From assembly GCF_900162665.1 (NCBI RefSeq), contig NZ_LT727811.1, forward strand, positions 562,063-626,062: a stretch of 64,000 nt of DNA, given 5' to 3'. Positions 5,681 through 13,604 of the stretch are shown one piece after another. The position numbers and the translations under genes were made by a program. The first letter of the stretch is position 1; the number at the start of each line of letters is the position of its first letter. The notes under the pieces were generated by a model. The model did not search any database and was not told the DNA's origin. It was given only the letters and a program-made list of their open reading frames with translations. This DNA comes from Oceanobacillus sojae. Lineage in GTDB: Bacteria > Bacillota > Bacilli > Bacillales > Amphibacillaceae.

Positions 5681-6586
5681 TCATTGACTGCCCGTTTCCC
5701 ACCTGCACCTCATAACCAGCTGCCCCTTATCCAATTCCGCAGAAAGACTCCCATTCATTTTCTCCATTAAGCTTTTAGCAATCGATAATCCAAGCCCTGT
5801 TCCTTTCCCTTTTCTCGCTTGATCCGCTTTATAAAAGCGGTCAAACAAGTGGAAAAGATCCTCTTCCTTTAATTGTGGAGCGGGATTACGAACCGTCAGT
5901 TCAACAAAGTCTGGAGTGTTTTTTAATGCAACCGTTACATCGCCAGTCGAATGCTTTAGAGCGTTTGTAATTAAGTTTTCCATTACCCGCTTCACTGCAG
6001 AGGAATCAGCCTTCACCCTTATGTCATCCTCTGAGATATGGACATCCGGTTCTATATGCTTTTGATTGAATGCTTCATAAAAACTTACCAGAACCTCCAT
6101 AATCAAATCATTTAATGAAATAGACTCTATTTTTAAAGAATAATCCGCTGATTCAATAACGGATAGTTCAAAAAAGTCTTCTAGCAACACTTTTAGTCTT
6201 AATGCGCCATTTTTTACAATTAAGACATACTCTTGTCTTTGATCATGGGTCAAAGCGTCATCTTCCAAAAATTGAATATATCCTAAAATAGAAGTCATCG
6301 GTGTACGGATATCGTGTGAAATATTTGAAACGGCCTGCTTCAGCTCATTCTCTGTCCGTCTTTTTTGGGCGGTGGCATGCCTAGTTTCATCGATTTGGAG
6401 ATTGATTTCATTTGCTAACTTTTCCAAATCCTTATCGAAAAAAGCAAGACTTATTTTCTTATCAGTTTTATTTTGGTGTCTCTTCTGTAATTGTTTATTA
6501 ACACGTCGTATTTCTTTTTTCAGGAAAATAAAGCGGCAGAGAATAAATAATGCGATAAAAACTGAAAATATTGCCACATACATCAT
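5681..6586 (-). CDS. Sensor histidine kinase, intramembrane-sensing type
   Basis: A 301-residue kinase with one strong N-terminal membrane segment (residues 2-23) and no sizeable extracellular domain. It then has a HisKA domain with the phospho-acceptor in NISHDIRTPMTS near residue 95, and a HATPase domain with N box ENLITNALKHS, FDRFYKAD and the G box GKGTGLGLSIAK. It is the last gene of a response regulator / ATPase / permease / kinase cluster on the same strand. In related Firmicute systems such kinases sense antimicrobial peptides through, or alongside, the neighbouring transporter. Partner: the response regulator at 8353-9045. Confidence 0.88.
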   Translation of the reverse strand: MMYVAIFSVFIALFILCRFIFLKKEIRRVNKQLQKRHQNKTDKKISLAFFDKDLEKLANEINLQIDETRHATAQKRRTENELKQAVSNISHDIRTPMTSILGYIQFLEDDALTHDQRQEYVLIVKNGALRLKVLLEDFFELSVIESADYSLKIESISLNDLIMEVLVSFYEAFNQKHIEPDVHISEDDIRVKADSSAVKRVMENLITNALKHSTGDVTVALKNTPDFVELTVRNPAPQLKEEDLFHLFDRFYKADQARKGKGTGLGLSIAKSLMEKMNGSLSAELDKGQLVMRCRWETGSQ

Positions 6587-6607
6587 TTACCTCACCCACC
6601 CATTCTT

Positions 6608-7357
6608 TTATTTTATTTCCTTTTTCTGAAATAAGATGCTCCCCAAAATTCCGAAAGCGACAAAAGTTACAACCGGAACTACGACCAATTTAATCATTTC
6701 AGGAACATTAACTGAATCTACATTTACAATATCCAAAAATAATTTAAACACAGAGTAGTTAAACACAGCTTCCAATACAGGATTTAATTGGCTCAATATA
6801 AACAAAATACTATCAAAAAGAATAAAAAAGATAAGCATGAAGCCAATTGATTTTCCACTATCCGTAAAGATTGTGGCAAACACGGCCATGATTGACGCAA
6901 ACGCTACTGCATAAAGGATCGTTAATCCAATTGTTCCAGCAAAGTATCCAATTCCCGGCATTCCATTGAAATGAAGAAAAACAGAGGCAGCTCCCGTAAA
7001 TACAATTGGAAATATTAATGAAATAAAAATTGCCCCAATGGAGTAGACAATCAATTTTGCAAAATAAATACGGACTCTGCTATTTCCCGAAGCAGCAATA
7101 CTCTTCATGGTTCCAATGGCATATTCACTTGAAATAAAGAAGCCCGCTAATATACAGGGAACAAGCCTTAGCACGTAATTGTTTCCCCCGAGGATGCTAT
7201 TTCGATAAAAATCAATTACCATAACCGTATCTGCTCCTTCGTCAAATACAATTAACAAAGGGTACAAAAGGCTAACAGTCGTCAAAATGATGATTAATGT
7301 CCAGAGTGATCGATCCTTCCTAAGTTTAAACCATTCAGCCTTTATAAGATTATCCAT
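6608..7357 (-). CDS. ABC transporter permease, lantibiotic/bacitracin-resistance type
   Basis: About 249 residues with six predicted membrane segments and the ABC-2 permease pattern: a cytoplasmic start (DNLIKAEWFKLRKDRS), TM1, then a loop with RNSILGGNNYVLRL and SSEYAIGTMKSIAASG. The start is taken as ATG 7357, eight bases after GGGGG; the TTG at 7372 is part of that ribosome site. It overlaps the ATPase gene by eight bases (ATGGATAA), so the two are translationally coupled. With the ATPase it should form an exporter removing a membrane-active antibiotic or peptide. The actual substrate is not known. Confidence 0.8.
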   Translation of the reverse strand: MDNLIKAEWFKLRKDRSLWTLIIILTTVSLLYPLLIVFDEGADTVMVIDFYRNSILGGNNYVLRLVPCILAGFFISSEYAIGTMKSIAASGNSRVRIYFAKLIVYSIGAIFISLIFPIVFTGAASVFLHFNGMPGIGYFAGTIGLTILYAVAFASIMAVFATIFTDSGKSIGFMLIFFILFDSILFILSQLNPVLEAVFNYSVFKLFLDIVNVDSVNVPEMIKLVVVPVVTFVAFGILGSILFQKKEIK

Positions 7358-8273
7358 GATGAATACCCCCAATACGATTCATAAAATAAGACTCCAGATT
7401 CTGTCCCATTGGCATGAATTCCTCAATGATCAGTCCCTCATTTACAAGTATGGAAGAAACCTTTCCGGGGGTCTCAACATAGTCGAATAGTTTCATACAG
7501 CCATCCGGCATCACTTCAAAGTCATTTGTGGAAAGCTGCTTTTCCATAATCGTGGCAGCCTTTTCCGGATTATTTACTTTGATATGCAAAAATTGCTGGC
7601 ATTTTTTATTGAGCTCTTCTATCGTTAATTGCTCCAATAAATTCCCTTTATGAATTATCCCATAATGGGTCGCAAGTAAATGTAACTCACTCAAAATATG
7701 ACTGGAGATCAGAATGGTCATGCCATATTCCTGATTTAATTTTTTCAACAGCTCCCGGATTTCAACGACGCCCATCGGATCCAGGCCGTTGATCGGTTCG
7801 TCAAGAATTAAAAATTCAGGATCTCCGAGTAATGCAATCGCTATTCCCAATCGCTGCTTCATACCTAGTGAAAAGTTTTTTGCCTTCTTTTTGCCTGTAT
7901 CCTGAAGACCTACGATGGCCAGCGTTCTTTTCACACATTCTTTCCCTGGGATTCCTTTTAAAAGCCGGTGTGCTTCTAAGTTTTCAGCAGCTGTCATATG
8001 TGGATACAATGCAGGTCCTTCTATGATGGTGCCAATCCGCTTCCGGGCCTGATTCAGCTCCTGCCCGTGGCTGTACCCAAATAATTCCATCGATCCGGCA
8101 GTTGGGCGGGCAAGCCCTGTCACAAGTCGAATAAATGTGGATTTTCCAGCGCCATTTTGTCCGATAAAACCGTAAATGGAACCCTTTTTTACGGACAGAT
8201 TCACTTTATTAAGAGCAATTTGATTTTTGAATTGTTTGGTTAAGCTGTTTGTTTTCAGTACATAATCACTCAT
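7350..8273 (-). CDS. ABC transporter ATPase, antimicrobial peptide resistance type
   Basis: About 307 residues. Walker A GQNGAGKST near residue 40, a signature NFSLGMKQRLGIA, Walker B LILDEPINGLDP and the switch His in SSHIL are all intact, so it should hydrolyse ATP. A C-terminal extension of about 90 residues is typical of the BcrA/NatA-like drug and lantibiotic exporters. The start at ATG 8273 follows AAGGAGGG. It follows the response regulator gene after about 80 bases that hold four TTAAG repeats and a -10-like TATACT, so the transporter genes likely have their own regulated promoter. It pairs with the permease at 6608-7357. Confidence 0.88.
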   Translation of the reverse strand: MSDYVLKTNSLTKQFKNQIALNKVNLSVKKGSIYGFIGQNGAGKSTFIRLVTGLARPTAGSMELFGYSHGQELNQARKRIGTIIEGPALYPHMTAAENLEAHRLLKGIPGKECVKRTLAIVGLQDTGKKKAKNFSLGMKQRLGIAIALLGDPEFLILDEPINGLDPMGVVEIRELLKKLNQEYGMTILISSHILSELHLLATHYGIIHKGNLLEQLTIEELNKKCQQFLHIKVNNPEKAATIMEKQLSTNDFEVMPDGCMKLFDYVETPGKVSSILVNEGLIIEEFMPMGQNLESYFMNRIGGIHHG

Positions 8274-8317
8274 CAATTTCCCTCCTTCACATGATGCTTT
8301 TAGTATAGAAAGGAAAC

Positions 8318-8356
8318 CTTAACAAACTCTTAAGGAGATTCTTAAGAAAACCTTAA
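8318..8356 (-). promoter_or_regulatory. Four phased TTAAG repeats upstream of the ABC transporter
   Basis: On the minus strand TTAAG occurs four times (plus-strand CTTAA at 8318-8322, 8329-8333, 8341-8345 and 8352-8356), spaced 11, 12 and 11 bases. Direct pentamer repeats about one helical turn apart are typical of OmpR-family response-regulator sites. A TATACT -10-like element follows on the minus strand with no good -35, as expected of an activated promoter. The last repeat overlaps the stop of the response regulator gene. Confidence 0.6.
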
Positions 8357-9045
8357 GTTCTCAGCCGGTACCCCATTCCCCAGACAGTCTCAATATACTG
8401 CTCATCCGGGTTAATGGCTGCCAGCTTGTTTCGTATATTGCTTATATGCACATTAATGATATTATCATCGCCGTAATACGCTTCTTTCCAGACACTTTCA
8501 AACAAATTTTTCTTCGTAAAAACCTTCTTCGGTGATGACAGGAAAAGAACTAATATCTCATATTCCCGCGCTGTAAAATTCAGCTGCTCCCCTTTAAGAA
8601 ATACAACTTTCGCCTCCTGATCAATCTCGATGTCTTTATGGACAAGTCTCTTCATGTCTGTCAGTTTATTGATTCGCTGATATCTTCTCAAATGCGAGTC
8701 AATCCGGGCAGAAACCTCCTCAATATCAAAGGGCTTTGTAATATAATCGTCTGCCCCGGTTCTTAACATACCTATTTTTGTTTCCTGATCGATTTTTGCT
8801 GAAATGATAATAACCGGAGTATTACTTTGTTCGGCAATCTTTGTCAGGATTTCATCTCCGGACATTCCTGGAAGCATCAGGTCGAGCAGTATCATATCCC
8901 ATTCCTGCTTTTCCAGATACAGCATTGCTTCTGTACCGGAAAAGGCAGGCTGAGGAGAGTAGTCGCTTTTTCTAATGATGTCACATAGTAATTGATTGAT
9001 ATCATTATCATCTTCTACTACTAAGATGTGTATTTGTTCGCTCAT
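8353..9045 (-). CDS. OmpR-family response regulator
   Basis: About 230 residues from ATG 9045 (AAGGTGA nine bases upstream; the GTG at 9057 is less likely). The receiver domain has acidic residues EDD at 11-13, phospho-acceptor Asp55 in ILLDLMLPG and Lys in YITKPFD. The C-terminal winged-helix DNA-binding domain shows LNFTAREYEILVLFL, DNIINVHISNIRNKL and VWGMGYRL. It is the first gene of the four-gene cluster; the kinase at 5681-6586 is the likely partner. The phased TTAAG repeats immediately downstream are its probable target. Confidence 0.92.
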   Translation of the reverse strand: MSEQIHILVVEDDNDINQLLCDIIRKSDYSPQPAFSGTEAMLYLEKQEWDMILLDLMLPGMSGDEILTKIAEQSNTPVIIISAKIDQETKIGMLRTGADDYITKPFDIEEVSARIDSHLRRYQRINKLTDMKRLVHKDIEIDQEAKVVFLKGEQLNFTAREYEILVLFLSSPKKVFTKKNLFESVWKEAYYGDDNIINVHISNIRNKLAAINPDEQYIETVWGMGYRLRT

Positions 9046-9192
9046 GGTTGGTTTCACCTTCCATTTTTGAGAAATTCGTTTTAATACGTTACTATAATTA
9101 GATTATAACCCTGGTTAGGGAGAAATATCATTGGTTTTTTACTTCTTTAGAATTCACCGCTATTTTAAAAACATCATACGACCATTATCTTA

Positions 9193-9221
9193 TTGACAAT
9201 CCACAAACAAATCGTTAGAAT
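9193..9221 (+). promoter_or_regulatory. Sigma-A promoter of the pheA leader
   Basis: TTGACA (9193-9198, perfect consensus) and TAGAAT (9216-9221) are separated by 17 bases. Transcription would start near 9228, about 27 bases before the leader-peptide ATG. Confidence 0.8.
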
Positions 9222-9254
9222 TTATTTAACAATTAAAAGATTCGAGTGATCATT

Positions 9255-9308
9255 ATGTTAAAGCATACATCCCGACAATTAAATCGTTTCTTTTTTAGCT
9301 ATTTTTAG
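9255..9308 (+). CDS. Phe-rich leader peptide of the pheA attenuator
   Basis: A 17-codon ORF starts at ATG 9255, with GAGTGA seven bases upstream, and ends at TAG 9306-9308. It encodes MLKHTSRQLNRFFFSYF: four of the last six residues are Phe and one is Tyr. It lies between a consensus promoter and an RNA segment that can fold into alternative hairpins, directly in front of pheA. This matches leader peptides such as enterobacterial PheL, where slow translation of Phe codons reports low charged tRNA-Phe. The last codons and the stop form segment 1 of the attenuator. No transcript or translation data are available here. Confidence 0.75.
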   Translation: MLKHTSRQLNRFFFSYF

Positions 9309-9417
9309 ATAGCGTCTATAGGCCCTCACGGATATAGATGCCCTATATCTAAGATGGCTGATTGACATGTAAACATGTTTAACCAGTCCCAGGAGAAATC
9401 GAAGCGGCTGGTTTTTT
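9295..9417 (+). promoter_or_regulatory. pheA transcription attenuator (mutually exclusive hairpins)
   Basis: Three exclusive pairings are visible. 1:2 pairs 9295-9311 (the end of the leader peptide codons) with 9346-9361, about 16 pairs with one bulge. 2:3 pairs GGCTGATT (9356-9363) with 9381-9388, enclosing an ACATG/CATGT stem: the antiterminator. 3:4 pairs AACCAGTC (9381-9388) with GGCTGGTT (9406-9413), eight pairs followed by TTTTTT: the terminator. A ribosome stalled at the FFF codons (9288-9296) would cover segment 1, free segment 2 and favour read-through; completed translation would let 1:2 and 3:4 form and terminate. No T-box AGGGTGG sequence is seen, so this is not a tRNA-Phe T-box. 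Confidence 0.75.
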
Positions 9418-9426
9418 ATATTTTCT

Positions 9427-9480
9427 AGACCATTTTCGTTTCTCTCCTTTTTCAGGGCTGAAGCATAAATGGTCTTTTTT
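9427..9480 (+). terminator. Second terminator-like hairpin before pheA
   Basis: AGACCATTT (9427-9435) and AAATGGTCT (9467-9475) form a nine-pair stem followed by T5. The loop is large, about 31 bases, and contains TCTCTCC, which could also pair with the pheA ribosome site. It may terminate or modulate transcription after the attenuator. Confidence 0.5.
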
Positions 9481-9504
9481 ATTATCATCAGAGGAGTGAA
9501 TATA

Positions 9505-10374
9505 TTGTTAATTGGTTATCAAGGTGTGGAAGGCAGTTACAGTACAGTCGCATGCCAAAGTTTTAGCGGAGAAAATAATTATCAGACACAGGGGTTTCTT
9601 ACCTTTCAATCATTAGTGGATGCACTGCTTCATGGCGAAGTCGACTATATTGCCCTGCCGGTAGAAAACTCCACAAGCGGTCCTATTACAAGAACAATCG
9701 ATTTACTGAAGTATTTAGATATAACAGCTACAGATGAAATCTATGTCAAAGTTGATCATGCACTGATTACAAAGCATCCTATGGAGCTGTCGGAAATCAC
9801 AAAGGTGTATTCACATCCGGAAGCACTTGTGCAGTGTGATACATATTTTAGCCAGTACCCGCATATCGAGGTTCTCGAATATATGGATACTGCTGGTGCA
9901 GTGGAGAGGCTTAAGCATGCAGAGGATAATACCATCGCCGCCATCGCAGGCAGTCATGCTGCAGCATTGTATGGCATGACCGTGACTCAGGAAAATATCA
10001 GCGACAATCCATTCAATACCACACGTTTTTTATTTTTTAAAAAGAAAGAGGCTCCAGTGAATCAGGTACTGGATAAAACATCTATTTATGTTGAAGCCAA
10101 TCACAGCGTTGGCTCATTAAGTGATATGTTAAACATTTTTAAAAGGCATGATATTAATTTGCTGTACCTCATGCCCCGCCCCGTTCAATCTGAACCGTTC
10201 GCATATGGGTTCTTTATCGATATCGATAGCGGTGCTGGTTACGAGGCACTCCATATGGCATTAAAAGAGTTGGAAGATATCTGCACATATATAAATATTT
10301 TAGGCAACTACCGTAAAGGTAAAATCCCAGTATACAAAGGAGCCTTACAATATGAGACAACTTTTAACAGCTAA
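9505..10374 (+). CDS. pheA: Prephenate dehydratase
   Basis: This enzyme converts prephenate to phenylpyruvate, the committed step of phenylalanine synthesis. The start is taken as TTG 9505, eight bases after GAGGAG; it gives MLIGYQGVEGSYS, matching the family N-terminus, and a 289-residue protein. An upstream ATG at 9469 lies inside a hairpin stem and has no ribosome site. The catalytic domain (residues 1-180) has ENSTSGPITRTIDLL and the NTTRFLFF motif with the catalytic Thr. A C-terminal ACT domain (about 195-275) would bind Phe for feedback inhibition, although its usual GALY and ESRP motifs are diverged. It is controlled by the Phe-leader attenuator upstream and overlaps the symporter gene by 23 bases. 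Confidence 0.9.
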   Translation: MLIGYQGVEGSYSTVACQSFSGENNYQTQGFLTFQSLVDALLHGEVDYIALPVENSTSGPITRTIDLLKYLDITATDEIYVKVDHALITKHPMELSEITKVYSHPEALVQCDTYFSQYPHIEVLEYMDTAGAVERLKHAEDNTIAAIAGSHAAALYGMTVTQENISDNPFNTTRFLFFKKKEAPVNQVLDKTSIYVEANHSVGSLSDMLNIFKRHDINLLYLMPRPVQSEPFAYGFFIDIDSGAGYEALHMALKELEDICTYINILGNYRKGKIPVYKGALQYETTFNS

Positions 10375-11581
10375 AAAACACTTATTCACCCGAATTGCGA
10401 TTGGATTTGGACTCGGAATCCTGCTTGGTATCCTTTTACCCGAATTCTCTATTCAAACAAAATTCATCGGCGATATTTACTTAAATTTAATTCAGATGAT
10501 GATTATTCCAATTATTTTTGTAGCAGTATCCACCGGAATTATTAATATTGGCAGCTCCAGTGATCTCGGCCGAATTGGCTTTAAGAGTATTGTTGTCTTT
10601 GTTATCATGTTTATCAGCACAGCAGCAATTAGTCTAGCAATTTCCTACCTGATTCGTCCTGGTCAGAAAATTACTATGGATGCGGTTGGATATGATGGGG
10701 AAATCACCGAACCAAGCTTTGCGGATTTCTTTATGAATATTGTACCTAGTAATCTATTCCAAGCGATTTCGGAAGGGGATATTCTGGCAACCATTTTATT
10801 CACGCTTATTTTCTCTGTAGCCATTGTTGTGATTGGGAAAGAGGCGGACCCGGTCAAAACCTTTATCAACAGCTTGTCCAAGGTCATCTTTAAAATTCTT
10901 GATTTCATCATGGAACTGACACCAATCGGAATTATTTCCCTGATGGCCTTCGCTGTTGCTGAATATGGCGCTGGCATTTTCTCTGCACTCGGGTTGTATA
11001 TTTTCACAGCATATTTCGCATGTATTATTGTATTTATCCTTGTTATGTTAATCCCGGCCTGGTTATATAGTAAACTGCGTCCGGTTGATTTTATTAAAGG
11101 TATTTATAAAGTGTGGCTCGTATCTCTATCGACGACAAGCTCTGCCGTAACAATGCCGACAACCATGCGGGTAACCAGAAATGATTTTAAAGTTTCCGAA
11201 TCCATTACGAACTTTGTTGTACCGTTGGGAACGACCATTAATATGGCCGGCGGAGCAGTATCGTTTAGTCTGCTTGCTGTTTTTGTATCCGACTTTTACG
11301 ATATTCCGCTCGGTGTCGGCCAAATTATATATCTCGTCATTATTGCAACGATTTTAAATATGGCAGCACCCGGTATTCCAGGTGGCGGAATTGTACTCGG
11401 GGCATCATTCCTGACTCTACTTAACCTGCCGATTGAACTGATGGGCCCTATCGCAGCTATCTATCGTTTATTGGATATGGCTTATACGACCATGAACATT
11501 ACCGGCGATGCCACCGCAGCAGTTCTGATTGATAAATCGGAGGAAAAACGGGCATTACGATTAAAAGCTAGGAAAGCTTAA
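10352..11581 (+). CDS. DAACS-family sodium:amino acid/dicarboxylate symporter with altered substrate site
   Basis: A 409-residue protein of the GltPh/GltT fold, with about eight membrane helices and two re-entrant hairpins. Family motifs are present: the serine/threonine-rich HP1 tip (LSTTSSAVTMPT, 259-270), TM7 GTTINMAGG (293-301), HP2 GIPGGGIVLG (341-350) and TM8 DMAYTTMNITGD (375-386). Compared with GltPh, the Asp of NMDGT (Asp312, a sodium ligand) is Ala299, and Arg397, which holds the substrate side-chain carboxylate, is Tyr378, while Asp394 (amino-group ligand) is kept as Asp375. A neutral or aromatic amino acid is therefore likelier than glutamate. It overlaps pheA by 23 bases with its own AAAGGAG, so it shares the Phe attenuator. 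Confidence 0.85.
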   Translation: MRQLLTAKKHLFTRIAIGFGLGILLGILLPEFSIQTKFIGDIYLNLIQMMIIPIIFVAVSTGIINIGSSSDLGRIGFKSIVVFVIMFISTAAISLAISYLIRPGQKITMDAVGYDGEITEPSFADFFMNIVPSNLFQAISEGDILATILFTLIFSVAIVVIGKEADPVKTFINSLSKVIFKILDFIMELTPIGIISLMAFAVAEYGAGIFSALGLYIFTAYFACIIVFILVMLIPAWLYSKLRPVDFIKGIYKVWLVSLSTTSSAVTMPTTMRVTRNDFKVSESITNFVVPLGTTINMAGGAVSFSLLAVFVSDFYDIPLGVGQIIYLVIIATILNMAAPGIPGGGIVLGASFLTLLNLPIELMGPIAAIYRLLDMAYTTMNITGDATAAVLIDKSEEKRALRLKARKA

Positions 11582-12707: not shown

Positions 12708-13604
12708 TTATCTCATATTTTCTTCCATAATGTCAACAAATCTTTCCGCAGCTCTATTTAAAGGAACATTTTTTAAATAACATATACCAATACTTCTTTT
12801 AGGTATAGGCTCCATTAAGGTTACTTCATGAAGCAGGCCACTTCTCAAAAACTGTTCAGAAAATTCTTTTGTAACGCAAGCAACACCAAGATTAATCTTT
12901 GCAAATTCTAACAGCAGTTCATGTGAGCCTAACTCAAATTCCGGCTGGATTGTAATTCCTTTTGTAAGAAAAAATTCTTCCACATATCTCCGGGAATTGG
13001 AATTGTCCAATAAAATAAGCGGAAACTTAACCAATTCTTCCAGTTCGATCGGCTTAGATAATTCTTTTCGATATTTTTCGCCATATACAAACGTATCCTG
13101 AATTTCCAATAAAGGCTTTACTTCTAATGACTTGTCATCAACAGGGAGGTTACAGATAGCAATGTTCACTTCTCCTGCTTTTAAGGCAGCTATAATTTCC
13201 CACGTTGTCCCATTGACTATTTTGAATTTGAGATTTGGATAGCGATTATGAAATGTTTCTAAGTAGGGAAGCAGAAAAAATCGCGAAATGGTATCACTGA
13301 CCCCTATTTTAAACTCACCAATGACTAAGTTTTTAAATTCTAAAAGCTTTTCTTCCCCAGCCTGTATAAATTGAAGTGCTGAACTGACGTATTCAAACAA
13401 TAAATTCCCTTCATCCGTTAGCGTTACCCCTTTAGACAGCCGATTAAACAGCCTTGTATCTAATTCCTTCTCTAATTGTGCCATTGATTGACTTATGGCC
13501 GGCTGTGACATATACAGCTCTTTAGCCGCCTTGGAAAAGCTTTTGTTTTTACTGACCGTATAAAAAAGATAATATAAATCCAATTTACCTATCATATAAC
13601 CCAT
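12708..13604 (-). CDS. LysR-family transcriptional regulator
   Basis: A 298-residue LysR protein. The helix-turn-helix is at residues about 8-65 (YYLFYTVSKNKSFSKAAKELYMSQPAISQSMAQLEKELDTRLFNR), followed by a linker helix and a two-lobed effector domain. It lies divergent from the CofE-like gene at 13767, with a 160-base AT-rich intergenic region between, the usual geometry for a LysR protein that activates its neighbour. A dyad-like sequence around 13690-13705 (TGTATTAGTACAATAC) could be part of its binding site. The effector is unknown. Confidence 0.9.
   Translation of the reverse strand: MGYMIGKLDLYYLFYTVSKNKSFSKAAKELYMSQPAISQSMAQLEKELDTRLFNRLSKGVTLTDEGNLLFEYVSSALQFIQAGEEKLLEFKNLVIGEFKIGVSDTISRFFLLPYLETFHNRYPNLKFKIVNGTTWEIIAALKAGEVNIAICNLPVDDKSLEVKPLLEIQDTFVYGEKYRKELSKPIELEELVKFPLILLDNSNSRRYVEEFFLTKGITIQPEFELGSHELLLEFAKINLGVACVTKEFSEQFLRSGLLHEVTLMEPIPKRSIGICYLKNVPLNRAAERFVDIMEENMR

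Follow-up and report, generated by a model that had tools for sequence, protein, structure and literature searches.

In enterobacteria, a Phe-rich open reading frame (ORF) precedes pheA, and segment 1 of the leader overlaps the control codons. In the his operon, a stalled ribosome goes with hairpins B:C and D:E and with read-through, a finished peptide leads to the E:F terminator, and untranslated RNA terminates (PMC4046918). In Bacilli, leader-peptide attenuation is described for several genes, including the antibiotic-sensing bmrB and vmlR of B. subtilis (PMC5864092, PMC5794164, PMC2965389, PMC4191407, PMC9226507); for Listeria Rli60/ilvD and Staphylococcus ilvD it comes with reporter or mutant data (PMC5864092, PMC5794164), and in Bacillus histidine leader peptides have been predicted before a duplicated gene, hisS*/hisZ (PMC2965389). 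Two attenuators within one leader are described for mgtCBR (PMC3641672). In the preliminary description of the present locus, leader-peptide attenuation was regarded as best known from Proteobacteria and Actinobacteria, and bacilli as relying mostly on T-boxes or TRAP; the taxonomic surprise is smaller than stated there, because amino-acid leader-peptide attenuators were already reported in Bacilli (PMC2965389, PMC5864092, PMC5794164). In the open-licence literature, as judged by titles and the beginnings of abstracts, no leader-peptide attenuator of pheA was found for Bacillota.

The stretch analysed here, called the window throughout, is 64 kb long and belongs to the 4.8-Mb genome of Oceanobacillus sojae, labelled own in the comparisons below. 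Before pheA stands what is very probably a ribosome-mediated transcription attenuator, predicted to sense charged tRNA-Phe through a leader peptide. As an observation, the attenuator of the preliminary description is confirmed as a whole, and its interpretation is supported with two corrections, namely a switch that appears to be his-like, with a relay hairpin and possibly a second gate, and the precedent in Bacilli given above.

A DNA search of 159 genomes of the family gave matches in nine; seven of these are real and carry the leader together with pheA, six of them from the genus and one (G127) from another genus, and two 25-base matches (L018 and L019) were dropped as chance after they had been read. 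The seven carriers compared are own, G025, G008, G019, G127, G018, and G014, with G008 and G019, which appear identical to L009 and L010, counted once. Accessory PheA was present at an identity of at least 82% in 6 of the 28 genus genomes sampled (own included); a protein search of 397 genomes of the order, a sample evidently without the other known carriers, returned own and two matches at 31–32% identity. The covariance model R1, searched with strict filters, recovered known carriers only, one among the 397 order genomes (own) and six among 156 family genomes; the known carrier G014 was absent from the matches and may not have been drawn. The elements around the leader are as follows.

9193–9221, forward strand: sigma-A-type promoter, TTGACA-17-TAGAAT (11 of 12 matches; both hexamers identical in all seven genomes)
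9244–9251, forward strand: SD-like site GAGTGATC of the leader ORF (-10.4 kcal/mol with the 16S tail)
9255–9308, forward strand: leader peptide ORF MLKHTSRQLNRFFFSYF, 17 codons, stop TAG (kept in all seven genomes)
9491–9496, forward strand: SD of accessory pheA, GAGGAG
9505–10374, forward strand: accessory pheA (prephenate dehydratase), TTG start (PF00800 180.8 bits, no ACT match)
10352–11581, forward strand: SDF-family (Na+:dicarboxylate-type) symporter (PF00375 361.9 bits)

The promoter, reported earlier as a consensus promoter and borne out here, is the best of 11 matches in 2 kb, where shuffles average 7.6. The leader ORF begins about 27 bases past the expected transcription start and encodes the 17-residue FFFSYF peptide that had been claimed, with Phe codons at positions 12–14 (9288–9296) and 17 (9303–9305). 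The pairing energy of its SD-like site compares with -11.0 kcal/mol for the SD of pheA, both obtained with an assumed 16S tail; -9 kcal/mol is reached by 4.0% of 3000 random 20-mers of the window. The pheA and symporter genes overlap by 23 bases, so they are probably co-transcribed as one operon, and a transporter gene was read behind pheA in own, L009, L010, and G127.

The upstream neighbours are a two-component system and an ABC transporter in own and L010, and other genes in L009 and G127; since these neighbours differ, leader and genes look like one travelling unit. In own, the upstream set (5681–9057, reverse strand) comprises a sensor kinase (by eye), a permease, an ABC ATPase closest to lantibiotic-protection types (under the curated cut-off), and a response regulator; it is present in L010 and is not in the 5 kb upstream in L009. 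Behind the operon lies a DNA_alkylation-family protein (PF08713; 11851–12525, reverse strand), found also in L010, while L009 has another ORF there. A stand-alone F420-0:gamma-glutamyl-ligase-like protein (PF01996; 13767–14957) adjoins a LysR regulator (12708–13604), and is kept in L009 and L010. On the reverse strand of L015 (G127), about 90 bases are inserted between the hairpin T2, treated below, and the SD of pheA, with leader and gene conserved.

The genome holds two prephenate dehydratase (PDT) genes, the accessory one at 9505–10374 and a canonical one at L020:1207–2058 on the reverse strand, which adjoins an obg-like gene (by eye). The two proteins are 31% identical; canonical PheA matches Pfam ACT at 32.9 bits, and accessory PheA has no match. 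The ESRP of canonical PheA, which we take to be a Phe-binding motif, corresponds to MPRP in accessory PheA and to MSRP, MPRP, or ISRP in its relatives. Accessory PheA may have lost feedback inhibition, and, as it has no ACT match, control by attenuation would be the more needed. The presence of two PDT genes in one genome was not among the points of the preliminary description; neither were the hairpin 1b:2 and the T2 hairpin (9427–9480). The pairing segments of the leader, with the letters of the his-type segments to which they correspond, are the following.

9295–9311, forward strand: segment 1 (A), overlapping the last leader codons; joined to segment 2 by 16 pairs (109 of 109 cells paired)
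9312–9320, forward strand: segment 1' (B), pairing with 1b by folding; inner hairpin 9312–9341
9321–9341, forward strand: segment 1b (C), with 1' and 2 as alternative partners; in 1b:2, 93 of 98 cells paired
9344–9363, forward strand: segment 2 (D); 0 of 20 columns vary
9381–9388, forward strand: segment 3 (E); 0 of 8 columns vary
9381–9417, forward strand: terminator T1, formed by segment 3 and segment 4 (9406–9413), with a T-run at 9412–9417; 55 of 56 cells paired

The three mutually exclusive pairings of the preliminary description, 1:2 with 16 pairs, 2:3, and 3:4, were recovered where it had placed them, and segment 1 (9295–9311) does reach over the last leader codons, the ORF ending at 9308. 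Computation puts segment 3 in both 2:3 (49 of 49 cells paired) and 3:4, which makes antiterminator and terminator alternatives to each other. The six T described as following 3:4 are present, but two of them lie inside the stem as drawn. T1 has an energy of -10.6 to -14.5 kcal/mol across the seven genomes (own -10.6); it was not found by a terminator scan that accepts loops of 3–8 bases only, because its loop has 17. The stretch 9228–9420 folds at -50.6 kcal/mol (z -3.9) and 9295–9380 has a z of -4.95, with 0 of 200 shuffles as good in either case.

The transcript was folded to just before segment 4 with the ribosome footprint masked codon by codon (3' footprints 8–13), and the probability of GGCTG:CAGTC (2:3) was taken as the measure of the antiterminator. 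Computed in this way, the antiterminator depends on the ribosome in most genomes. In own, at footprint 10, the probability of 2:3 is 0.02 without a ribosome, 0.01–0.07 over codons 3–11, 0.88–0.91 at Phe12–14, 0.91–0.92 at S15 and Y16, 0.21 at F17, and 0.09 at the stop codon; 2:3 forms only with codons 12–16 (FFFSY) in the A site. The earlier proposal that stalling at Phe codons lets 2:3 form agrees with this prediction for own. A folding of the three states had been suggested there as a check; at footprint 10, 2:3 peaks at the Phe codons in six of seven genomes, with at most 0.02 without a ribosome and at most 0.11 at the stop codon (at F13: own 0.91, G025 0.91, G019 0.96, G127 0.58, G018 0.94, G014 0.82), but G008 never switches. 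There, 2:3 stays at or below 0.02 wherever the ribosome stands, since 1b and 2 form a perfect hairpin of 16 pairs.

The stop codon lies 35 bases from segment 2, so a ribosome at the stop cannot cover that segment. The fall of 2:3 is explained by the covering of 1', which frees 1b (9321–9341) for segment 2: in own, 1':1b stands at 0.99 and 1b:2 at 0.00 with the ribosome at Phe13, and at the stop codon the values are 0.00 and 1.00. At the stop codon, 1b:2 reaches 0.99–1.00 in all seven genomes with footprints 8–13, and in G008 it does so at every position. Because termination would return at the stop by way of a further hairpin (1b:2), the logic resembles that of the his operon, and a his-like relay through 1b is rather likely.

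Some of these values change with footprint and measure. With footprints of 12–13, 2:3 is open in own as early as codon 11 (0.45, 0.88), and it opens again at the stop in G127, G018, and G014 (0.47–0.86). In the codon-by-codon masking of G019, placing codon 3 or codon 4 in the A site gives 2:3 a probability of 0.26 or 0.38, respectively. When any upstream pairing of segment 3 is counted (the broader measure), well-separated states are found only in own and G025 (without ribosome 0.17 and 0.22, at F13 0.95 and 0.95, at the stop 0.68 and 0.68), the stop-state value of 0.68 being mostly a weaker pairing with GATTG, at -5.0 instead of -9.7 kcal/mol. By the same measure, segment 3 is engaged without a ribosome in G008 (0.99), G019 (0.97), and G127 (0.71); in G018 and G014 it is so with the ribosome at codon 8 (0.73 each). 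In the folding, only a ribosome at the control codons favours the antiterminator in own and G025 by both measures and in six of seven genomes by 2:3, the broader measure being unclear in five of seven. The switching amplitude was defined as segment 3 held upstream at Phe13 minus the highest value among no ribosome, codon 4, codon 8, and stop; own has 0.26, which was reached by 4 of 800 dinucleotide shuffles of 9309–9380, and another form of the amplitude measure, with the ORF placed one base off, was matched by 1 of 600 shuffles.

As soon as the transcript includes segment 4, the equilibrium lies on the side of T1 in all seven genomes, wherever the ribosome stands (P34 0.72–0.95), so read-through must be kinetic. 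The path barriers to the terminator state, which are upper bounds from a narrower path search, are lower at the stop codon (5.8–5.9) than in the stalled state in all seven, in G019 by only 0.1. In three genomes, the untranslated barrier is not below the stalled one (untranslated/stalled: own 9.3/8.3, G008 11.1/7.6, G019 11.6/6.0).

We infer that the leader ORF is translated, and that response to Phe, termination, and timing would run as follows. RNA polymerase would start near 9228, a position suggested by the promoter, and make the leader. If no ribosome loads, or if one stalls early, 1:2 would form and segment 3 would be left for segment 4, with a stop at T1. A ribosome waiting at Phe codons 12–14 would cover segment 1, so that 1' closes on 1b and segment 2 stays free; free segment 2 would then pair with segment 3, T1 would be blocked, and pheA and the transporter gene would be read. 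After completing the peptide, the ribosome would stand at the stop codon and cover 1' as well, 1b would take segment 2, and T1 would form again. TTNTTT is a motif of NusG-dependent pausing, and the Phe codons TTCTTTTTT hold it at 9288 and 9291. A pause there could make RNA polymerase wait for the ribosome, which is only an idea, because this strand of the window has 5.7 such motifs per kb.

Conservation is higher in the leader than in its gene. Across the seven genomes, 48 of 259 leader columns vary, against 287 of 867 in pheA and 47 of 66 at fourfold sites of pheA; between own and the six others, identities are 90.3–98.8% for the leader, 84.0–87.5% for pheA, and 63–73% for the fourfold sites (own and G025: leader 98.8%, pheA 86.4%). 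Loops vary (6 of 11 columns at 9321–9331, 5 of 17 in the AT1 apical loop), and segments 2 and 3 together do so at 0 of 28 columns. Conservation of the leader peptide, on which the preliminary description had let its claim stand or fall, is found: all seven genomes retain the ORF, its ATG start, and the SD-like GAGTGAT, with FFF in six and CFF in G019. In three of the seven, a one-base T deletion shifts the frame after Phe17, places the stop one codon later, and removes the bulge of helix 1:2 (bulge by eye). Among the first six genomes five leader codons differ (by eye), and each difference is nonsynonymous, so that apart from the Phe run no conservation of the peptide itself is seen. Compensatory changes are absent among the seven genomes, where a few one-sided changes occur, for example G-T to G-C in 1':1b; as the arms hardly vary, covariation neither supports nor refutes the pairings.

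Downstream of T1, two further elements come into consideration.

9427–9480, forward strand: second terminator-like hairpin T2 with T6 (-19.3 kcal/mol, z -5.05)
9391–9448, forward strand: candidate second antiterminator AT2, in which the T1 loop and segment 4 pair with the 5' half of T2 (by folding)

The outer arms of T2 are paired in 63 of 63 cells, and its 3' arm is invariant (0 of 11 columns). In a free fold from segment 2 on, AT2 appears in six of the seven genomes (not in G014). T1 and AT2 are mutually exclusive, so RNA polymerase let through T1 would find T2 disarmed too. A second leader ORF (AGGAG-8-GTG in the T1 loop, followed by the Phe-rich VAGFLYF... across T2) was considered in L007, L009, and L010 and rejected as a conserved feature, because own and G025 have GCG for GTG and because its lengths differ (8 codons in G014, 21 in G008 and G019; others by eye). 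The AGGAG of the T1 loop is better explained by AT2 pairing than by such an ORF. The Phe-rich ORF seen across T2 in several relatives, and not in own, is possibly a remnant or chance.

Whether T2 belongs to the switch bears on how far the attenuator extends. It is possible, and we advance it tentatively, that a T1 switch is followed by a T2 gated by AT2, which would extend the attenuator and does not exclude it: RNA polymerase leaking past T1 would meet T2, and RNA polymerase let through T1 would also pass T2. T2 is the stronger hairpin in all seven genomes (own -19.3 vs -10.6), in all seven the RNA folds as AT2 until the 3' arm of T2 has been made, if segment 3 is taken as held (-17.3 to -21.4 kcal/mol), only 3 of 17 columns vary in the T1 loop, which a plain terminator does not need, and the heuristic barrier to T2 is 12.0–20.3 kcal/mol with AT2 against 2.4–5.0 with T1, again in all seven. 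However, with the T1 loop shuffled the AT2 energy is attained by 55, 63, 20, 4, 15, 5, and 28 of 1000 sequences (own, G025, G008, G019, G127, G018, and G014), with the T2 middle shuffled by 17 to 84 of 1000, and the energy of the duplex that T1 loop and T2 middle form by themselves by 31 to 284 of 1000; the barrier is reached in 4, 2, 43, 44, 103, 37, and 59 of 400 (same order). These controls are not independent across genomes, because the genomes are related. The T2 state is also 2.7–7.2 kcal/mol more stable than AT2, and a wider path search gave about 12.9 instead of 20.3 (own) and 18.9 (G025). With chance controls that are moderate to weak for AT2 and T2, a coupled second gate is suggestive only, and a complete cascade, in which one Phe leader peptide and a his-like relay would open two terminators serially and take over control of a PheA without recognisable ACT domain, we consider unlikely. 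T2 could instead serve to stabilise the 5' end of a pheA message cleaved between the two hairpins, or hide the start region, with T1 alone attenuating; its great stability and its position just before the SD (9491) fit this, but the six-T run directly after its stem, kept in seven of seven genomes, does not, and we hold the proposal doubtful.

Two further explanations would dispense with the leader peptide altogether. The FFF ORF could be a by-product of T-rich sequence, with T1 and T2 constitutive or answering another signal (protein or ligand). FFF is indeed not rare by itself, being found in 7 of the 802 ATG ORFs of 10–30 codons in the window, G008 shows no switch, and the broader measure is clear in only two of seven genomes. 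An ORF with an SD-like site in every carrier, a Phe run (CFF in its one variant form) placed where a stalled ribosome frees segment 2, and a downstream gene that makes Phe speak against a by-product, which we regard as very unlikely. That a T-box or another Rfam class senses Phe here might be expected, since Bacilli use T-boxes and the own genome has 26 T-box matches, 20 of them over the cut-off; none of these lies in the window, and the absence of a T-box claimed earlier is upheld by the covariance-model search, which found no T-box (RF00230) and 0 Rfam families in the 64 kb at gathering score. Within 9180–9510, with E up to 5, the only matches were the trpB motif at 20.2 bits (cut-off 59, E 1.6) and, on the opposite strand, SAM-II at 14.4 bits (cut-off 44, E 4), both far below their cut-offs; no model of an Rfam amino-acid leader family, such as Phe_leader, matched. 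We give this explanation next to no probability.

The Phe attenuator bears upon a question of timing. RNA polymerase of Bacillus subtilis is reported to outrun the ribosomes in what is called runaway transcription (PMC9226507), so the timing of an attenuator becomes a problem: leader-peptide attenuation needs a ribosome that keeps pace with RNA polymerase, which conflicts with runaway transcription. A conserved Phe attenuator in a Bacillaceae relative with T-box matches in such number makes that conflict testable, and the switch is small, self-contained, and transferable to B. subtilis. Such an attenuator would point to his-like logic having arisen independently for Phe, possibly with two gates, and to an enzyme copy without ACT match under RNA control.

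Compared with the enterobacterial pheA leader, the likeness consists in a Phe-rich ORF before pheA and in segment 1 lying over the control codons, an overlap already noted in the preliminary description and indeed shared; the O. sojae leader differs by the 35 bases between stop codon and segment 2 and by the lack of an Rfam match. The likeness to the his operon attenuator of Salmonella and E. coli (hairpins A–F) is one of roles, with 1, 1', 1b, 2, 3, and 4 playing A to F, whereas codons and gene differ (here Phe codons and pheA) and no relation in sequence is claimed. As in the his type, where C:D forms once B is blocked by a ribosome at the stop codon, 1b:2 forms at the stop in all seven genomes; the untranslated his RNA has A:B and C:D, which own does not form, pairing instead A with D around B:C (1:2 around 1':1b). 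Because this untranslated wiring differs, though it works alike, the pheA leader is not filed as a member of the his type. With Listeria Rli60/ilvD and Staphylococcus ilvD it shares leader-peptide attenuation of an amino-acid operon in Bacilli; these have branched-chain codons and other genes, and their descriptions are not known to include a relay hairpin or a second gate (PMC5864092, PMC5794164). With the predicted Bacillus hisS*/hisZ leaders it shares a leader peptide before a duplicated gene, and differs from their His codons and hisS paralogues; mgtCBR has two ORFs and two signals, whereas in the pheA leader there is a single ORF, possibly with a single pair of coupled terminators (PMC2965389, PMC3641672). 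The kind of attenuator is known; new are the amino acid, Phe, the gene, pheA in a Bacillaceae relative, and the wiring, with its relay and a possible second gate.
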